Positions 713 through 6,812 of a stretch of 29,339 bases of DNA are shown piece after piece. The stretch spans positions 1-29,339 of the IMG/VR virus record IMGVR_UViG_3300017758_000078. One strand, given 5' to 3'. The notes beneath the pieces are model-generated. The model worked only from the letters and a program-made list of their open reading frames with translations, was not told where the DNA came from and searched no databases. Every line of letters starts with the position of its first letter. The stretch's first letter is position 1. This DNA is from a virus. Made by a program: the position numbers and the translations under genes.

Positions 713-1249
713 ATGGATTTCCCTGATAAAAAATATAACATCATTTACGCAGATCCACCCTGGTCATTTAAGAATTTTAGTAAAAAAGGTGAGGGTAGAA
801 ATCCTAATCAGCATTATGCAACACAAGATCTGAACTGGATCAAGTCTTTACCTGTAAATGACATAGCTGATAAAGATTGTGTTTTATTCCTATGGGTAGT
901 TAATCACTCTTTACCACAGGCATTTGAAGTTATCGAAAGCTGGGGCTTTACTTACAAGACAGTAGCTTTCAACTGGGTTAAGAAAAATATGAGATCCGAG
1001 GGATTCTTCACTGGTTTAGGATATTGGACAAGAGGAAATCCAGAATTATGTTTATTAGCAACAAAAGGAAAACCAAGCAGAGTTTCTAAAGCTGTAAAAG
1101 AATTAGTAATAGAACCTAGATCTAAACACAGCAAAAAACCAGACAGAATTAGAGATGATATCATTGACTTGTGTGGTGATCTCCCTAGAATTGAATTGTT
1201 TGCAAGGAATACGACTAAAGGATGGGATGTATGGGGGAACGAGATTTAA
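713..1249 (+). CDS. MT-A70 family adenine-N6 DNA methyltransferase, copy A
   Basis: A 178-residue protein that transfers a methyl group from S-adenosylmethionine to the N6 of adenine. The catalytic DPPW (residues 14-17, in NIIYADPPWSF) is the MT-A70 signature. The later blocks FLWVVNH, ESWGFTYKTVAFNWVKKN, GYWTRGNPELCLLATKG and the C-terminal LCGDLPRIELFARNTTKGWD follow the family order. Its length is normal for the short phage and prokaryotic members. It is first in a chain of five overlapping methyltransferase genes and sits directly on a promoter. Copy B (next gene) shares the same architecture and a nearly identical C-terminus (HSKKPD...LCGDLPRIELFAR...GWD.WGNE), so the two look like a tandem duplication. 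The recognition sequence cannot be read from the sequence. Confidence 0.92.
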   Translation: MDFPDKKYNIIYADPPWSFKNFSKKGEGRNPNQHYATQDLNWIKSLPVNDIADKDCVLFLWVVNHSLPQAFEVIESWGFTYKTVAFNWVKKNMRSEGFFTGLGYWTRGNPELCLLATKGKPSRVSKAVKELVIEPRSKHSKKPDRIRDDIIDLCGDLPRIELFARNTTKGWDVWGNEI

Positions 1250-1779
1250 TACCTTTTCCAGAAAAGAAATATAATATTATTTATGCTGATCCACCCTGGT
1301 CTTATGATTCAGGTTTTCTTAAAAGAAATTGGGAGGGCAAATATCCTCAGATGAAACCACAAGAGATTTACGATCTACCAGTGCAAGATATAGCAGACGA
1401 CAATTGTATTTTGTTTATGTGGATCACTTATCCTAAATTACTTATAGGTTTGCAAGCTATGGAAAGTTGGGGATTCAAGTATCGCAGTGCAGCGTTTACT
1501 TGGGTTAAAAGGAATAAGAAAGCAGATACTTGGTTTTGGGGCATGGGGCATTGGACTCGTGCTAATGCTGAGGTCTGCTTTCTGGGTGTAAAAGGAAAAC
1601 CTCAAAGAGAAAGCGCAGGCGTTCACTCAATCGTTGATGAAAGAATACAAGAACACTCAAAAAAACCAGATGTAGTTAGAAATAAAATTGTAGAGCTTTG
1701 TGGAGATCTACCAAGAATAGAACTATTTGCAAGACAAACTGCTGAGGGTTGGGATAATTGGGGAAATGAAACTCTATAA
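1231..1779 (+). CDS. MT-A70 family adenine-N6 DNA methyltransferase, copy B
   Basis: A 182-residue paralogue of the preceding gene, with DPPW at residues 20-23 (YNIIYADPPWSYDSG). It shares WVKRN, the GHWTRANAEVCFLGVKGKP block and the C-terminal LCGDLPRIELFARQTAEGWD. It overlaps copy A. ATG 1231 is preferred because AAAGG (1217-1221) lies 9 bases upstream; ATG 1222 is an in-frame alternative that would add three residues. The segment between DPPW and the FMWIT block (residues about 24-60) differs from copy A (PQMKPQEIYDLPVQDIA against HYATQDLNWIKSLPVNDIA), so substrate or target choice may have diverged. Probably co-translated with its neighbours. Confidence 0.9.
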   Translation: MGERDLIPFPEKKYNIIYADPPWSYDSGFLKRNWEGKYPQMKPQEIYDLPVQDIADDNCILFMWITYPKLLIGLQAMESWGFKYRSAAFTWVKRNKKADTWFWGMGHWTRANAEVCFLGVKGKPQRESAGVHSIVDERIQEHSKKPDVVRNKIVELCGDLPRIELFARQTAEGWDNWGNETL

Positions 1780-2683
1780 AGGCGACTGTTTAGATTTTAT
1801 GAAAGAACTAGAGGATGGATCTATAGATCTAATCTTATGTGATCTTCCGTTTGGCCTTATGAAAAACATAGGTGAGGATGACGGCAGATTTCAAAATGGC
1901 ATGCTTGGTAAATTTGATTGGGATGACTCTGTAGATCTTGAAAAGTTTTTCTTCTTGTCAGAAAAGCTACTTAGAGAGTCAGGTAGATTAATTCTTTTTG
2001 GCATACAGCCGTTTACAACCACTTTGGTAAATCACGCAACATTGAGTTTGCCTTTTGCTTATTCTATGATTTGGGAAAAGGATCACTTCGGTGCAGCCTT
2101 TCAAGCAAAAAGAGCTCCACTAAACTTTTATGAAGATATACTGGTATTTACTAAAAGATACGATTCAACATTTAGCAATCCACTAAGACAGTACTTTGAA
2201 TGGTTATTAAAGCATATAGGAAAAAGTAAAGCTCGCTTGATTATGGAATTTGGACAAAAGGCTGATCATACTTTTAGAACTAGAAGTACACAGTTTAAGC
2301 TATGTACAGAGGAAACTTATAACGAAATTGTTGAGAAATATCAGATTCAAGATAACGAAAAGTTCATGCCATACGATCTCCTTAAAAAGATAAACGATCA
2401 ATACGCGCAAACTTTCAATCTATCTGATGAAGATACATTCAAAAGTAACATACTTAAGTACCCTAGAGACAGCGAAAAACACCACCCTACTCAAAAACCT
2501 GTTGATCTTCTTGTTAATTTAATTGAAACATTTACAAATGAGGACGATGTTGTAGCTGACTTTACTATGGGAAGTGGTAGTACTGGAGTTGCAGCTAGGA
2601 AAACAAACAGAATATTCTTAGGATCCGAGTTAGATGAGGACTTCTATGATATTGCCTACAAAAGAATACAAGGCCAGCTTTGA
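1766..2683 (+). CDS. Beta-class N6A/N4C DNA methyltransferase with DLPF catalytic motif
   Basis: A 305-residue protein from ATG 1766 (MKLYKGDCLDFMKEL), overlapping the previous gene by 14 bases; GGGGAA sits just upstream. In-frame codons continue upstream to 1727, but the KLYKGDCL start matches the family. The catalytic motif (residues 26-29, DLILCDLPFG) comes before the SAM-binding motif (about 265-273, DFTMGSGSTG), which is the beta-class order of the N6_N4_Mtase family. The usual DPPY/F is DLPF, a variant I know from other phage enzymes. Between them a roughly 80-residue insert (about 135-215) is a likely target-recognition region. HPTQKPVDLL marks the closing part of the family. Predicted to methylate adenine N6 or cytosine N4 of phage DNA. 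Confidence 0.88.
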   Translation: MKLYKGDCLDFMKELEDGSIDLILCDLPFGLMKNIGEDDGRFQNGMLGKFDWDDSVDLEKFFFLSEKLLRESGRLILFGIQPFTTTLVNHATLSLPFAYSMIWEKDHFGAAFQAKRAPLNFYEDILVFTKRYDSTFSNPLRQYFEWLLKHIGKSKARLIMEFGQKADHTFRTRSTQFKLCTEETYNEIVEKYQIQDNEKFMPYDLLKKINDQYAQTFNLSDEDTFKSNILKYPRDSEKHHPTQKPVDLLVNLIETFTNEDDVVADFTMGSGSTGVAARKTNRIFLGSELDEDFYDIAYKRIQGQL

Positions 2684-3339
2684 AGTTAATTAACGGAGAT
2701 TGCCTAAAAATAATATCGGAAATGCCAGAAAACAGCGTAGATCATGTTTTTACTAGCCCACCTTACAATATTGGCAGAAGTAGATCATTAGATTCTAAAG
2801 CTAAGGGTAAATACAAGCACTTTTCCGACAATAAAGATAACTACTTAGATTGGTGTACAGAAATCATAGATCAACTGCTTAGGATCACAAAAGGCTATGT
2901 TTTTTGGAATATTCAAGCAAATGCTTTAAATAAAGCTGATGTTTTTAAACTTATTGGTCATTATGCAGATGTGTTAGAACAAAACTTTATTTGGTATAAA
3001 CCTAATGCTACACCTAGTTCAAAACAGTATTATGTTTCAAATGTTGTCGAGTATGTTCTTTGTTTTTCAGAAAAGAAAGTAAAAGGCAACCAACACTTCT
3101 TAAAAAATTATGTAGAGATAAATAAAGGGACTAAGTATATAAAAGATTTAAACGCACAAATGCCTGTATCTTTATCTGATCACTTTATTACAAACTACAC
3201 ACAAAAAGATGAAGTTATACTGGATCCATTTATGGGATCTGGCACAACAGGAGTTTCTTGCAGTAATGGACAAAGAGACTTTATTGGTATAGAATTAGTT
3301 CAAGAGTACTACAAAATAGCAAAGGAAAGACTTACATGA
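2680..3339 (+). CDS. Beta-class DNA methyltransferase with TSPPY motif
   Basis: A 219-residue protein. The start is TTG at 2680, overlapping the preceding TGA (TTGA), and it aligns MKLINGDCLKII with the MKLYKGDCLDFM start of the gene before. The catalytic motif SPPY (residues 26-29, VFTSPPYNIG) precedes DPFMGSGTTG (near residue 180), so it too is beta class; SPPY is most typical of N4-cytosine enzymes but occurs in N6-adenine ones. The core is compact with almost no extra target-recognition insert. Fourth gene of the operon, coupled by overlaps on both sides. Whether it makes m4C or m6A is unresolved. Confidence 0.88.
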   Translation: MKLINGDCLKIISEMPENSVDHVFTSPPYNIGRSRSLDSKAKGKYKHFSDNKDNYLDWCTEIIDQLLRITKGYVFWNIQANALNKADVFKLIGHYADVLEQNFIWYKPNATPSSKQYYVSNVVEYVLCFSEKKVKGNQHFLKNYVEINKGTKYIKDLNAQMPVSLSDHFITNYTQKDEVILDPFMGSGTTGVSCSNGQRDFIGIELVQEYYKIAKERLT

Positions 3340-4946
3340 GATTAGGAAGCATGTTTGCAGGTATCGGTGGTGTAGATCTTGGCTTGATTAGATCAGGCTT
3401 AGTTACTGATGTTAAATGGCAAGTTGATAACGATGAGTTTTGTACAAAAATTTTAAAAAAAAATTTTCCAGATAGTTTAGTAATGCACAAAAATGTAGAA
3501 GATATAAATACAAAATATTTACCAGAAGTAGATATGATAACGGCAGGTTTTCCATGTCAGCCTGTGAGCGTGGCAGGAAACCAGAAAGGAGTATTAGATG
3601 AAAGATGGTTATGGGATGAGGTCGAAAGATTTATTGATGAGTTACGACCACAAGTCTTCATGTTGGAAAATGTCCCCAACATCCTCAGAGCAAGCAACGG
3701 AGAAGCAATTCATCGTGTCCTCAAAAGTGTGGCCGAAATGCGCCATTATAGATTTGAATGGCAACTTATATCAGCAAAGTTCGTTGGAGCAAGGCACAAA
3801 AGACAAAGATGGGTGGGAGTTGGAATCGTGGGAGACTCCGAACACTATGGATCACTTGCCAGCGAGATCAGGGGACGCTTTGGAGAGAGCGCTGTATCGT
3901 GGAGATCCAGAGAGGAAGAGCAAAAGAAAATCTACTGGCAACTTGCGAGAAAATCCGAAAATTTGGCTCACACCGACAACAATGGATCAGAAAGAGGACA
4001 GCCTGAAACACGCAACCAAACTGATGCAGGGGAAAACGAGGAGAGCTACAGGTCATCGAATACAGAGAACATTGAGCGATCAAGTATGGATGGACATGAT
4101 AGAAAAGGATCCGACCTTGATGGAGTATTACCAGGATCACGAGATAGTCAAGAGACCAATGCTTCCAGATCAAATGGAGTTCGTGGATTATCTGAGAAGT
4201 CAGACATCAGCAACCAAACTACAGAAGTTGACCAAGATCAAGAAGTCGACAGTGGATCACTGGTTCAGGAAGGACAAGTACTTCAGTCATCCGACAGTGG
4301 ATCAGTGGATTCAGATCAAACCACACCTAGAGGAGATCAAGTACGACAAGGAGTTGATGACAGTACAGGTAATGGAGTGGAAAACCAAAGAGGAGATGGA
4401 AATGTGGCCGACTCCCTCGACACAGGACAACGAACACAAGAATTTGGAATTGAACGACAAGGGCAGGAGAGTAGCAAAGACTGGGGGCGAGAGCAGATCC
4501 CTGAACCTAGCAGACAAAGTGCAGGTGAGGAAAAAGGAAACATTTTCGACACCAGCAGCCTCTCAAGCATCAAAGCCAGTCAATCGCCATACCCCATCAG
4601 CGAGAGCAGGGAAACATGGCTCTACTTTGGAACAGGACATTGGGGAACGAGATCCCACATTGATTGGGATGCGCCTCAATCCAGCATGGGTGAACAGACT
4701 TATGGGTTACCCAGATGGTTGGCTGAGCTTGGACTAACAAACGATTGGGGAGTTGGTAATGATTGGGAAGATGGTCAATCTAGAGTTGCCGAAAGAAAAG
4801 AAAATGATGTTGATCGACTTAAAGCTCTGGGTAACGGAGTTGTTCCACAGTTTTCTGAACTGGTAGGTAGATTAATTATTAAATCACTTATTGAGGATAC
4901 TTTAGTGTTTGATCCAGAGATTGTTAAGGTAGATCGTCCTCACTAA
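3336..4946 (+). CDS. C5-cytosine DNA methyltransferase (outer frame of a dual-coded locus)
   Basis: A 536-residue protein. Motif I is FAGIGGVDLG (7-16), the catalytic motif IV is GFPCQPVS (71-78, Cys74), motif VI ENV is 111-113, motif VIII is QLISAKFVGARHKRQR (143-158), and motifs IX-X end in RLKALGNGVVPQ (about 494-505). These are the hallmarks of enzymes that methylate cytosine C5 through a covalent Cys intermediate. The region between motifs VIII and IX (about residues 165-440) is long, low in hydrophobics and rich in S, D, Q, E and G, with recurring (V/L)(G/A)(D/H)(S/T)-x-x-x-G units (VGDSEHYG, LAHTDNNG, VADSLDTG). A second open frame, 3598-4737, covers most of this gene. Start overlaps the preceding stop (ATGA). 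Ordinary function is likely; the middle may be shaped by the other frame. Confidence 0.9.
   Translation: MRLGSMFAGIGGVDLGLIRSGLVTDVKWQVDNDEFCTKILKKNFPDSLVMHKNVEDINTKYLPEVDMITAGFPCQPVSVAGNQKGVLDERWLWDEVERFIDELRPQVFMLENVPNILRASNGEAIHRVLKSVAEMRHYRFEWQLISAKFVGARHKRQRWVGVGIVGDSEHYGSLASEIRGRFGESAVSWRSREEEQKKIYWQLARKSENLAHTDNNGSERGQPETRNQTDAGENEESYRSSNTENIERSSMDGHDRKGSDLDGVLPGSRDSQETNASRSNGVRGLSEKSDISNQTTEVDQDQEVDSGSLVQEGQVLQSSDSGSVDSDQTTPRGDQVRQGVDDSTGNGVENQRGDGNVADSLDTGQRTQEFGIERQGQESSKDWGREQIPEPSRQSAGEEKGNIFDTSSLSSIKASQSPYPISESRETWLYFGTGHWGTRSHIDWDAPQSSMGEQTYGLPRWLAELGLTNDWGVGNDWEDGQSRVAERKENDVDRLKALGNGVVPQFSELVGRLIIKSLIEDTLVFDPEIVKVDRPH
3585..3591 (+). promoter_or_regulatory. Shine-Dalgarno for the embedded gene
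   Basis: AAAGGAG, 6 bases before ATG 3598, lies within C5 methyltransferase codons. It is a near-ideal ribosome binding site that serves only the +1-frame gene and is one of the best reasons to accept that gene. Confidence 0.7.
3598..4737 (+). CDS. Embedded +1-frame protein with TP-x-T-x-D repeats and HTH-like segment
   Basis: A 379-residue ORF lying wholly inside the C5 methyltransferase gene in the +1 frame, with its own AAAGGAG site. Motifs visible in order: SSCWKMSP (20-27), VWPKCAIIDLNGNLYQ (44-59), WETPNTMDHLPARSGDAL (78-95) with NLRE (115-118), IWLTPTTMDQ (122-131), a predicted HTH-like part (about 190-255, with STVDHWFRKDKYFSHPTVDQW), MWPTPSTQDN (269-278), FSTPAASQ (316-323), and the end LNPAWVNRLMGYPDGW (360-375). 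I recognise the W-P-T-P-T-x-x-D and LNP-x-W-V-x-x-L-M-G-x-P-x-G-W patterns from uncharacterised phage proteins linked to C5 methyltransferases. Where this frame looks folded (HTH part) the outer frame is low-complexity. Function is unknown; a DNA-binding partner of the methyltransferase is conceivable. Confidence 0.7.
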   Translation: MKDGYGMRSKDLLMSYDHKSSCWKMSPTSSEQATEKQFIVSSKVWPKCAIIDLNGNLYQQSSLEQGTKDKDGWELESWETPNTMDHLPARSGDALERALYRGDPERKSKRKSTGNLRENPKIWLTPTTMDQKEDSLKHATKLMQGKTRRATGHRIQRTLSDQVWMDMIEKDPTLMEYYQDHEIVKRPMLPDQMEFVDYLRSQTSATKLQKLTKIKKSTVDHWFRKDKYFSHPTVDQWIQIKPHLEEIKYDKELMTVQVMEWKTKEEMEMWPTPSTQDNEHKNLELNDKGRRVAKTGGESRSLNLADKVQVRKKETFSTPAASQASKPVNRHTPSARAGKHGSTLEQDIGERDPTLIGMRLNPAWVNRLMGYPDGWLSLD

Positions 4947-5324: not shown

Positions 5325-5379
5325 TAGAGTAGAGTAGAGTAGAGAAGACTAGACTAGAGTAGACTAGAGAAGAAAAGAG
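5325..5379 (+). repeat. In-phase pentamer tandem repeat (TAGAG-type), 11 units
   Basis: Eleven consecutive 5-base units: four TAGAG, then AAGAC, TAGAC, TAGAG, TAGAC, TAGAG, AAGAA and AAGAG. The tract is purine-rich on the plus strand and ends directly at the TATAAT of the downstream promoter, so copy-number change would alter promoter geometry. Confidence 0.75.
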
Positions 5380-5381
5380 TA

Positions 5382-5411: not shown

Positions 5412-5558
5412 ATGAAAAAAATATTAGAATACTTTAAATTAAAAATACTTGTAAATAAATTAATGAATAGAAGTAACGGACTATTAACTGAAGAAAAAGT
5501 TGTACATAAAATTAATGGAAAAGATTACAGTTTTCCAAAATATAAGGAGTTGACATGA
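5412..5558 (+). CDS. Small hypothetical protein
   Basis: A 48-residue ORF, basic at the N-terminus (MKKILEYFKLKILVNKLMNR) and polar after it, ending KYKELT. Its stop overlaps the next start (ATGA at 5555-5558), and the next gene's AAGGAG is inside its last codons, so the two are translationally coupled. It is the first gene after the promoter at 5382. Not recognised. Confidence 0.55.
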   Translation: MKKILEYFKLKILVNKLMNRSNGLLTEEKVVHKINGKDYSFPKYKELT

Positions 5559-5935
5559 AAATAATGGTCACTTTTGAATTAACGGAAGATTATATTCTTG
5601 AAGTTGAGACAGAACAAGAAGCAATAAAAAAAGTACAAAAAATATTTGATTTTAAACAAGAATCTCAGAACGATCTATTAAAGCAATATAATATTGATTA
5701 TAGTTGTGATATAGAAAAAAAGTATATCAATGTTCAAGATGATGAAGTTGTAGAAGAACCACAGCTTGATTATGAGATTATATACACCGAAACTGCTGGC
5801 AGTCCTGGTGAAGCACTTGAAAAATTGCAGAATAGGATCGTTGGGGCAGATGACTACATAGAGCCTGTAATATCACCAGTTTTAAATGAGGAGTATGAAA
5901 TACTAACTGGGATAAAGGCAGAAGGAACAGCATAA
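5555..5935 (+). CDS. Hypothetical acidic protein
   Basis: A 126-residue acidic protein with a good AAGGAG site 5 bases before the ATG. The first 40 residues (MKIMVTFELTEDYILEVETE followed by an EAIKKVQKIF helix) look like a small beta-alpha fold. A second part contains EIIYTETAGSPGEALEKL, which resembles a repeat of the first pattern (beta strand, then EA..KLQ helix), so the protein may be two copies of one small alpha/beta unit. The stop overlaps the next start (TAATG). Function unknown; an early or host-interaction protein is possible given its place next to the control region. Confidence 0.7.
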   Translation: MKIMVTFELTEDYILEVETEQEAIKKVQKIFDFKQESQNDLLKQYNIDYSCDIEKKYINVQDDEVVEEPQLDYEIIYTETAGSPGEALEKLQNRIVGADDYIEPVISPVLNEEYEILTGIKAEGTA

Positions 5936-6132
5936 TGACAGAAATACCTAATTTTCCAGCAGGTACTAAAAGAGAAGATGCTATTGACGAATTAATATCC
6001 GATGGAGATCTTAAAGAAGTTGTTTTAAAACAATTCAACTACATGAGGATCAAAGGCATTAATTTAGTTCAAGACGCAGACGATCTTGTAAACTTATATT
6101 TAAGTATTTGCAAAAAATTTGAAGAGAAGTAA
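5935..6132 (+). CDS. Small hypothetical protein
   Basis: A 65-residue protein coupled to the preceding gene by a TAATG overlap. It begins MTEIPNFPAGTKREDAIDEL and continues with predicted helices (LKEVVLKQFNYMRIKG; DADDLVNLYLSICKKFEEK). The regular charge spacing and absence of rare features suggest a real helical protein. It is last in the 5412-6132 operon and is followed by a clear intrinsic terminator. Not recognised. Confidence 0.65.
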   Translation: MTEIPNFPAGTKREDAIDELISDGDLKEVVLKQFNYMRIKGINLVQDADDLVNLYLSICKKFEEK

Positions 6133-6438: not shown

Positions 6439-6473
6439 GATACATATAAATTTTAAAATTTGAATTTTTGTGC

Positions 6474-6479
6474 TACGAT
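6474..6479 (+). promoter_or_regulatory. -10 element (TACGAT) of the thioredoxin gene
   Basis: TACGAT fits the TANNNT -10 pattern common in Actinobacteria and ends 9 bases before ATG 6489. No Shine-Dalgarno fits between, so the message is probably leaderless or nearly so. Confidence 0.5.
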
Positions 6480-6488
6480 GTTCTAACT

Positions 6489-6812
6489 ATGATTAAGAAA
6501 ATAGATCAATCCAACTTTAACGAAACAATCTCAAGAGACGATATAACTACAATTGTTAAGTTTGAAGCTGATTGGTGTGTTCCATGCAAAGAGATTACAC
6601 CAGCAGTAGAGTCCCTCAATGAAGAGTGGAAAGATCAAAAGGTGGAGTTTGTAGCAGTTGATATAGAAGATGCTGCAACAGTAACTACTCAATATAATAT
6701 TTTTGGTGTTCCAACCTTTATCGCATTTCAAAATGGTCAGCCTGTTTCTGAAGTGAGATCAAGAGTAAATATTGGAAATATCAAATCTTCTTTTGAAAAG
6801 TTCTTAGTCTGA
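6489..6812 (+). CDS. Thioredoxin
   Basis: A 107-residue single-domain thioredoxin from ATG 6489; an upstream in-frame TTG (6468) is unlikely because it lies before the -10 element. It reduces protein disulfides through two active-site cysteines. FEADWCVPCKEITP holds the CxxC (Cys30, Cys33); the common WCGPC is WCVPC here, which could shift redox potential or partner choice. VDIEDAATVTTQYNIFGVPTF carries the conserved cis-proline (Pro75 in GVPT). It has no signal peptide, so it is cytoplasmic. Phage thioredoxins may serve ribonucleotide reductase, DNA polymerase processivity or redox balance; no such partner is in this window. An iron-sulfur WhiB protein elsewhere makes redox control an attractive link, by inference only. 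Confidence 0.93.
   Translation: MIKKIDQSNFNETISRDDITTIVKFEADWCVPCKEITPAVESLNEEWKDQKVEFVAVDIEDAATVTTQYNIFGVPTFIAFQNGQPVSEVRSRVNIGNIKSSFEKFLV

Follow-up and report, generated by a model that had tools for sequence, protein, structure and literature searches.

A C5-cytosine methyltransferase gene in a viral genome and the conserved reading frame nested within it: a probable two-chain enzyme encoded by the same DNA

C5-cytosine DNA methyltransferases divided over two polypeptides have been described before. According to PMC3404938, M.EcoHK31I (YGGCCR) carries motifs I-VIII and X on its large chain and motif IX on a smaller second chain, the target-recognition domain (TRD) being predicted in the large chain, and the naturally split M.AquI (CYCGRG) has a small subunit with part of the variable region, motif IX and motif X. 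Enzymes of this class that are split between motif VIII and the TRD function by complementation, as stated in PMC5944983. In the ShiLan-type system, a phage DNA methylase gene conceals, in a different frame, an HNH nuclease derived from a homing insertion; the overlap described in PMC8936443 is one of target sites, not of genes. Here we analyse a 29,339-base viral record, IMGVR_UViG_3300017758_000078 (the window, taken at its full length), in which the open reading frame (ORF) of a C5-cytosine methyltransferase (outer frame; product, alpha) encloses a second ORF in the +1 frame (inner frame; product, beta). We regard it as very probable that one C5-cytosine DNA methyltransferase is encoded here as two chains by the same DNA, and within this reading the dual coding, the constraint on both frames, the distribution of the motifs, the homology of beta to the TRD-motif IX region of single-chain relatives and the wide conservation of the arrangement are demonstrated.

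The outer ORF (3336..4946) begins with ATG and specifies 536 amino acids (aa); the inner ORF (3598..4737) also begins with ATG, specifies 379 aa and occupies the +1 frame, as the two starts are offset by 262 nt. Both frames, and all motifs within them given below, are on the plus strand. A Shine-Dalgarno sequence, AAAGGAG (3585..3591), precedes the ATG at 3598 by six bases, and the inner ORF is not extendable upstream because an in-frame TAG (3595-3597) lies directly 5' of this ATG. Coordinates, frames, motifs and the spacing of the Shine-Dalgarno sequence had all been given by a first-pass annotation made from the letters of the sequence, and on recheck they were as claimed. The rise in base composition that it had reported is likewise real, GC content being 0.433 at 3598-3830 and 0.481 at 3831-4737 compared with 0.347 before and 0.378 after the overlap in the outer gene; in the upstream methyltransferase genes it is 0.340. 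In all 23 close loci that cover the start of beta, both the start and the Shine-Dalgarno sequence are kept (15 with AAGGAG, 6 with AAGGA and 2 with AAGG), which is not independent evidence, since the same bases encode the conserved alpha residues QKG...DER.

The probability of such an overlap arising by coincidence was estimated by fixing one of the two proteins and either resampling its codons from phage usage or shuffling its own codons (2000 trials). With the outer protein fixed, the inner frame averaged 17.0 stops per 379 codons (11.9 with shuffled codons), and no trial of either variant was free of stops (0 of 2000); holding the inner protein constant gave the outer frame 39.9 stops on average (17.3 with shuffled codons), and again 0 of 2000 trials were stop-free. 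Seven other loci subjected to the same resampling also gave 0 of 2000, and in the eight loci tested the alpha frame is free of stops where 7.5-45 are expected with beta fixed. The inner ORF is no chance ORF, and the locus is dual-coding.

Selection on the two frames was studied in 20 close loci, from which we picked 18 pairs for codon positions, 7 for silent changes and 9 for identities; omitted were near-copies (L001, L002, L006 and L007), loci cut by a contig end (L021 and L025) and L058, in which our script found no alpha motif. When two frames overlap in +1, the third position of an outer codon coincides with the second position of an inner one. Outside the overlap, on either side, outer third positions vary most (29.9-66.7% in the 18 pairs). 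Inside it, outer third positions differ at 2.1-14.5% and outer first positions, the inner wobble positions, at 14.8-37.2% in the 16 pairs without L023, and at 33.6-33.9% and 48.5-49.8%, respectively, in the two pairs with this more distant locus. The pattern can be followed in the window and L004, which are of equal length: alpha codon positions 1/2/3 differ at 14.8/3.4/2.1% within the overlap, at 9.2/0.0/29.9% before it and at 10.1/7.2/44.9% after it. Per opportunity, changes silent only in beta occur at rates of 0.045-0.082 and changes silent only in alpha at 0.003-0.021, the former being 3.7 to 13 times as frequent across the seven pairs. Within the overlap, evolution follows chiefly the inner frame, and on either side the outer gene changes in the normal way.

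The balance between the frames shifts along the overlap. Over the first 75 inner codons, which lie opposite outer motifs VI-VIII, the outer frame is equally or better conserved in the nine pairs, with beta-frame identity of 83-95% in seven of them and of 41 and 44% in the two that include L023; past these codons, outer identity is 29-81% as against 57-97% for beta. Between the window and L008, for instance, the outer and inner frames are 89% and 84% identical in the first part and 52% and 77% identical in the later part. The outer frame had been described beforehand as conserved and then low-complexity; the conservation over motifs VI-VIII holds, and the later stretch is better described as the less conserved of two coding frames. 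The outer frame must nevertheless be translated through the overlap, because normal outer coding with motif X returns after the inner stop. Selection is not confined to the outer frame: purifying selection acts on the inner frame and, in most of the overlap, is stronger there than on the outer one.

What the two chains carry follows the order of a single C5 enzyme. Alpha matches PF00145 at 3e-45 (residues 1-255 to profile positions 1-234 of 324), TIGR00675 dcm at 2.2e-36 and M.HhaI at 4.1e-18, in the last case over residues 2-159 only. Motifs I, IV, VI, VIII and X of the C5-cytosine DNA methyltransferase family (PF00145) are all found in alpha and in this order, by sequence and alignment: FAGIGG, for binding of S-adenosylmethionine (AdoMet; 3354..3371), PCQ with the catalytic Cys (3552..3560), ENV, which is dual-coded with the N-terminal part of beta (3666..3674), the KRQRWVGVG region (3798..3824; alignment) and, 3' of the overlap, the Gly-Asn of LKALGNGVVPQ (4830..4835). 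We take FAGIGG, PCQ, ENV and KRQRWVGVG to be motifs I, IV, VI and VIII, respectively. The profile match of alpha ends at 3815, 14 bases 5' of the first TP block of beta. Motif IX was not found in the alpha frame of the window, either by alignment or in the census described below, and was found in the +1 frame; alpha alone is incomplete for a monomeric C5 enzyme, because its motif IX sits in a frame other than its own.

Beta is built around four TP blocks seen in its sequence, namely WETP (3829..3840) opposite alpha VGDS, WLTP (3964..3975) opposite LAHT, WPTP (4405..4416) opposite VADS, and FSTP (4543..4554); the mirroring of the first three had been claimed previously and is real when both translations are compared. 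Near its C-terminus lies motif IX, LNPAWVNRLMGYPDGW (4675..4722), dual-coded with alpha PQSSMGEQTYGLPRW and assigned through in-frame counterparts in relatives. A helix-turn-helix (HTH)-like insert (about residues 186-250; 4153..4347) shares 52% identity over 59 aa with a DNA methyltransferase of a Staphylococcus phage and is missing from relatives L023 and L024; the predicted local distance difference test (pLDDT) of AlphaFold is 80-86 at residues 191-250. The number of TP blocks also varies among relatives, and this variation, together with an insert that comes and goes, suggests that the recognition unit of beta is modular. In 24 of 26 tabulated loci, the alpha profile match is followed after 2-23 bases by the first TP block found; in the remaining two, the TP-block pattern caught an earlier site.

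The identity of the hidden frame is revealed by natural relatives in which both halves occupy a single frame, six viral contigs in all. Three of these (L031, L033 and L034) hold a near-identical string, LNPAWVEQLMGYPDGW, in frame between motifs VIII and X of one chain, and in two others (L155 and L157) several WxTP blocks are followed in the same chain by a string similar to beta motif IX; in these five enzymes, WxTP blocks, motif IX and motif X are all in one frame. By hhalign, the beta profile matches L031/L033/L034 with probability 98.4 (E 6e-15) and L157 with probability 98.8 (E 8e-17), the latter alignment spanning three TP blocks and motif IX. Beta also matches the phage protein family phrog_1008 (2e-6, its relatives up to 5e-39), so homologues of the inner protein outside the overlap, whose absence had been named in advance as a point against dual coding, exist both as this family and fused in frame within single-chain C5 methyltransferases. 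No Pfam family was found at cut-off in the window beta, and no HNH family either. As the single-chain relatives match beta there, beta carries what alpha is without, a segment in the target-recognition position and motif IX, and the inner protein most probably constitutes the target-recognition/motif IX part that the C5 methyltransferase of this locus is otherwise missing. The label TRD for the TP-block region rests on position and homology. The first-pass annotation had seen in the inner frame an overprinted partner and a new system; this was not borne out, as the inner protein resembles the TRD/motif IX part and the division of motifs is that of M.EcoHK31I.

The arrangement recurs widely. 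Whether the inner ORF is intact in relatives was a point on which the earlier claim of a conserved dual-coded locus could have failed; among the 41 loci of the first scan, motif IX is encoded by a stop-free +1 ORF overlapping alpha in 35 and in frame with alpha in 3, the other 3 beginning at a contig end and being without a recognised alpha. A scan with the alpha profile drew on 600 stretches, and among the best 80 of at least 547 relatives motif IX is in +1 in 64, in frame in 5, absent in 8 and downstream in 3; the 64 include L086, with a canonical-type motif IX (13 bits), which leaves 63 of 80 with the type of the window. A scan with a single-chain enzyme gave 40 of 49 in +1, 6 in frame and 3 without motif IX, a scan of bacterial genomes 12 of 14 in +1 and 2 without alpha, and both E. 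coli prophage-like loci have it in +1. Thirteen phage and plasmid records, hand-picked from beta matches (lists of 10, 88 and 8 records), comprise 11 in +1, one with alpha cut by a stop and one unrelated methyltransferase, and the further records L203 and L204 likewise have motif IX in +1. Across all census scans, no motif IX was found in the +2 frame within the overlap among the matches listed. Single proteins served as queries for beta, its wide alignment having too few conserved stretches for scanning. The window itself (L044) was excluded; some loci are redundant (L056 and L057 are first-scan contigs, and L152-L154, L164 and L188 repeat earlier contigs) or near-copies (L159-L161, L168/L169, L179/L180, L189/L190 and L155/L156). 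Because the samples are biased and contain near-copies, these figures describe the conservation of the arrangement and not its share of all C5 methyltransferases. Together with the resampling and the selection on the inner frame, the intact inner ORF of the relatives bears out the claim that the locus is a conserved dual-coded one.

Genome contigs with the +1 arrangement are titled Pseudomonadota, Bacteroidota, Neomarinimicrobiota metagenome-assembled genome and the actinomycete Lentzea. Depositors annotated both frames in Paenibacillus phages Bloom and Diva and in Xanthomonas phage PhiXhv-28, and only one frame in some other records. In the E. coli prophage-like locus L137 (1144-2355), RefSeq gives alpha as two partial pseudogene pieces; the alpha ORF there runs uninterrupted through 404 codons and includes motif X, and the +1 frame holds an open beta. 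Alpha is cut by one in-frame stop in a record of a Bacteroides plasmid (L051, 1065-2132), where beta remains open in +1 over 353 codons. In G001, the Lentzea genome to which L149 belongs, 5 of 12 PF00145 matches reach no further than profile positions 160-169, each lying within an open frame of 432-551 aa, and such shortened matches may flag further dual-coded methyltransferases. In a larger tree, the single-chain clade is nested among dual genes with weak support; on a thinned set, the approximately unbiased (AU) test does not reject a single clade of all dual genes (p 0.59), and either the single chain or the dual gene may have come first.

Several observations weigh against the two-chain reading. 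Dual-type genes supply 23 of the 26 sequences in the alpha profile, which biases the census, and the conservation of the Shine-Dalgarno sequence and ATG of beta may be owed to alpha codons. HMMER set the L033 string on M.HhaI 272-289 (RKLHPRECARVMGYPDSY) weakly, at -0.7 bits, a score that is meaningless alone; these residues are presumably motif IX of M.HhaI. A search of the PDB with the beta profile matched no C5 methyltransferase. Beta modelled by itself with AlphaFold gave a poor result (mean pLDDT 57.6, predicted TM-score (pTM) 0.26), and in the model of the single-chain L157 (mean 64.2), for which the alpha and beta rows were split, pLDDT stays under 50 in the TRD region and is 54-65 in the motif IX blocks; no confident recognition domain emerged from these predictions, and no fold backs the TRD reading. 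In Foldseek, L157 matches M.HhaI and M.HaeIII (ranks 1-6) over 165-169 columns, approximately the catalytic domain; with the beta model, 0 of 73 Foldseek matches reached E <= 0.001, and weak HTH matches all had E > 1. Finally, M.EcoHK31I has its predicted TRD in the large chain, whereas the TP blocks of the window stand in the TRD position in beta.

We propose the following scheme. The outer ORF would yield alpha, comprising the catalytic domain (I-VIII) and motif X with a weakly conserved hydrophilic linker between them, and beta would be initiated on the same message at its own Shine-Dalgarno sequence and ATG within alpha. Beta carries the TP-block region in the TRD position and motif IX, and the DNA keeps the canonical order I-VIII, TRD, IX, X with only TRD-IX in +1. 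By docking on alpha, beta would complete the small domain and select the DNA target, and alpha would provide AdoMet and flip and methylate the base; alpha without beta would be inactive or non-specific. The enzyme could be one of five tandem modification enzymes that shield the phage DNA from host restriction. Translation of beta, its assembly with alpha, the activity and the role are what we infer from the sequence of the locus and its relatives.

Other explanations of the inner frame have to be weighed against this scheme. Beta might be an unrelated overprinted protein, such as an inhibitor or regulator of the methyltransferase, that lies in the gene by happenstance, and its own start and Shine-Dalgarno sequence, its HTH-like insert and the lack of a Pfam family at cut-off would all suit such a protein; we nevertheless consider this improbable, given that the TP-block and C-terminal part of beta is homologous to the VIII-X segment of single-chain enzymes, precisely the segment missing from alpha. 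The canonical order in the DNA, a distance of 2-23 bases, in 24 of 26 loci, between the alpha profile match and the first TP block, and a beta Shine-Dalgarno sequence placed on conserved alpha codons could alternatively speak for ribosomal frameshifting, by which one protein would be made from motifs I-VIII in frame 0, a +1 shift into beta and perhaps a return to motif X. Such a mechanism, however, leaves unexplained why the start and Shine-Dalgarno sequence of beta are kept in 23 close loci, why the first 75 beta codons, opposite alpha VI-VIII, are conserved in the beta frame too, and why alpha is open over the whole overlap when 17-40 stops are expected, and it is unlikely to account for the locus.

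It could also be that only beta and the N-terminus of alpha are of importance, and that the later part of the overlap is passive read-through in the outer frame. The far lower conservation of the outer frame there (29-81% versus 57-97% for beta, nine pairs) is in line with this idea, which becomes very improbable in view of an alpha frame that lacks stops in 8 loci despite 7.5-45 expected, and of the typical alpha coding with motif X that returns after the overlap. That the inner ORF is simply a chance open frame in a GC-richer stretch has the raised GC of the overlap in its favour and practically no probability left: retention of the start and Shine-Dalgarno sequence, the +1 census, the resampling and the single-chain homology are all opposed to it, and the codon-position pattern in the overlap refutes it. 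The encoding of one enzyme as two chains by the same DNA is the reading that we retain.

Another kind of +1 ORF, with a block like KYFLSxKACxGILRRAxKRGKxLP, occurs inside canonical phage C5 methyltransferases: dmt of the P1-like phage JL22 (L202; 1222-1710 and 921-3185), L201 (988-1464) and the canonical-type enzyme L086 with its +1 ORF (2456-3667 and 2631-3575). Over 40 residues, these three are 59-70% identical in the +1 frame and 28-32% in the methyltransferase frame. The L086 ORF matches 240 phage records, none covering 80% of the ORF and many perhaps matching through canonical motif IX alone. In L086, canonical motif IX (RRLTPAECERLQGFPDGWT) is in the +1 frame and the GN of motif X in frame 0, which perhaps marks an independent origin of the same split, or else a sequencing frameshift. 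Tentatively, and with more doubt than conviction, we raise the idea that dual coding is usual in a large class of phage C5 methyltransferases and arose more than once, in the TP-block/motif IX type and in the P1-like dmt type; placing the specificity half over the linker would bring mutual constraint and make the halves inseparable by recombination.

The window encodes phage head, portal, terminase and tape-measure proteins, and it opens with a tandem array of five methyltransferase genes (713-4946), or six if beta is counted; as called, adjacent ones overlap by 4 to 53 bases. Upstream of alpha, a family scan recognised two MT-A70 type methyltransferases (713-1249 and 1222-1779) and two of the N6/N4 type (1727-2683 and 2680-3339). 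No restriction nuclease was recognised among the neighbouring ORFs scanned; the ORF at 5555-5935 is without a family, and that at 5935-6132 was outside the scan. Between the methyltransferases and the next genes lies an array of TAGAG-like 5-base units (5325-5381; 11.4 copies, 80% matches), and a thioredoxin gene (6468-6812; PF00085, 1.5e-22) is situated between the methyltransferase block and the head gene block.

If the two-chain reading is correct, what is annotated as one phage 'DNA cytosine methyltransferase' gene can amount to only half of an enzyme, and the half that chooses the target goes unannotated or is annotated as hypothetical or as a second methylase. Recoded cloning of the annotated gene would silently destroy beta, and specificity prediction, methylome matching and phage-defence work would require the hidden frame. 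Apart from its enzymatic interest, the locus is a case of long (379 codons here), same-strand and widely conserved dual coding in which, for most of the overlap, conservation is higher in the hidden frame than in the other, and in which natural single-chain relatives reveal the identity of that frame. In the parts of the open-licence literature (without preprints) that were accessible, we found in print neither the breadth of the arrangement nor the selection signal or the single-chain relatives.

With respect to known systems, the ShiLan-type locus resembles the window in that a phage DNA methylase gene conceals a second protein in a different frame; that protein is a nuclease insertion with no detectable ribosome-binding site and not a part of the enzyme, and the window beta is without an HNH family. 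Paenibacillus phages Bloom and Diva and Xanthomonas phage PhiXhv-28 share a beta in the +1 frame of a C5 methyltransferase; the betas of Bloom and PhiXhv-28, however, are without the HTH-like insert, and that of Diva is 234 aa and annotated as 'g49 internal gene' without function. M.AquI has in common with the window a C5 methyltransferase in two chains with motif IX on the smaller one, but its small chain holds motif X, which in the window is in alpha (4830-4835), and its subunit genes are not known to be nested. For M.EcoHK31I, Lee reportedly described in 1995 that the small-chain gene lies inside the large-chain gene in another frame, and both chains were reportedly needed in vitro; a small-chain gene nested in another frame is what we find in the window. 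As in the large and small chains of that enzyme, alpha has motifs I-VIII and X and beta motif IX; in contrast, the beta of the window, 379 aa long and provided with an HTH-like insert, is encoded inside a phage methyltransferase cluster. By its predicted motifs, the window locus matches the motif division of M.EcoHK31I but not the stated place of its TRD, and it appears to extend that two-piece design.

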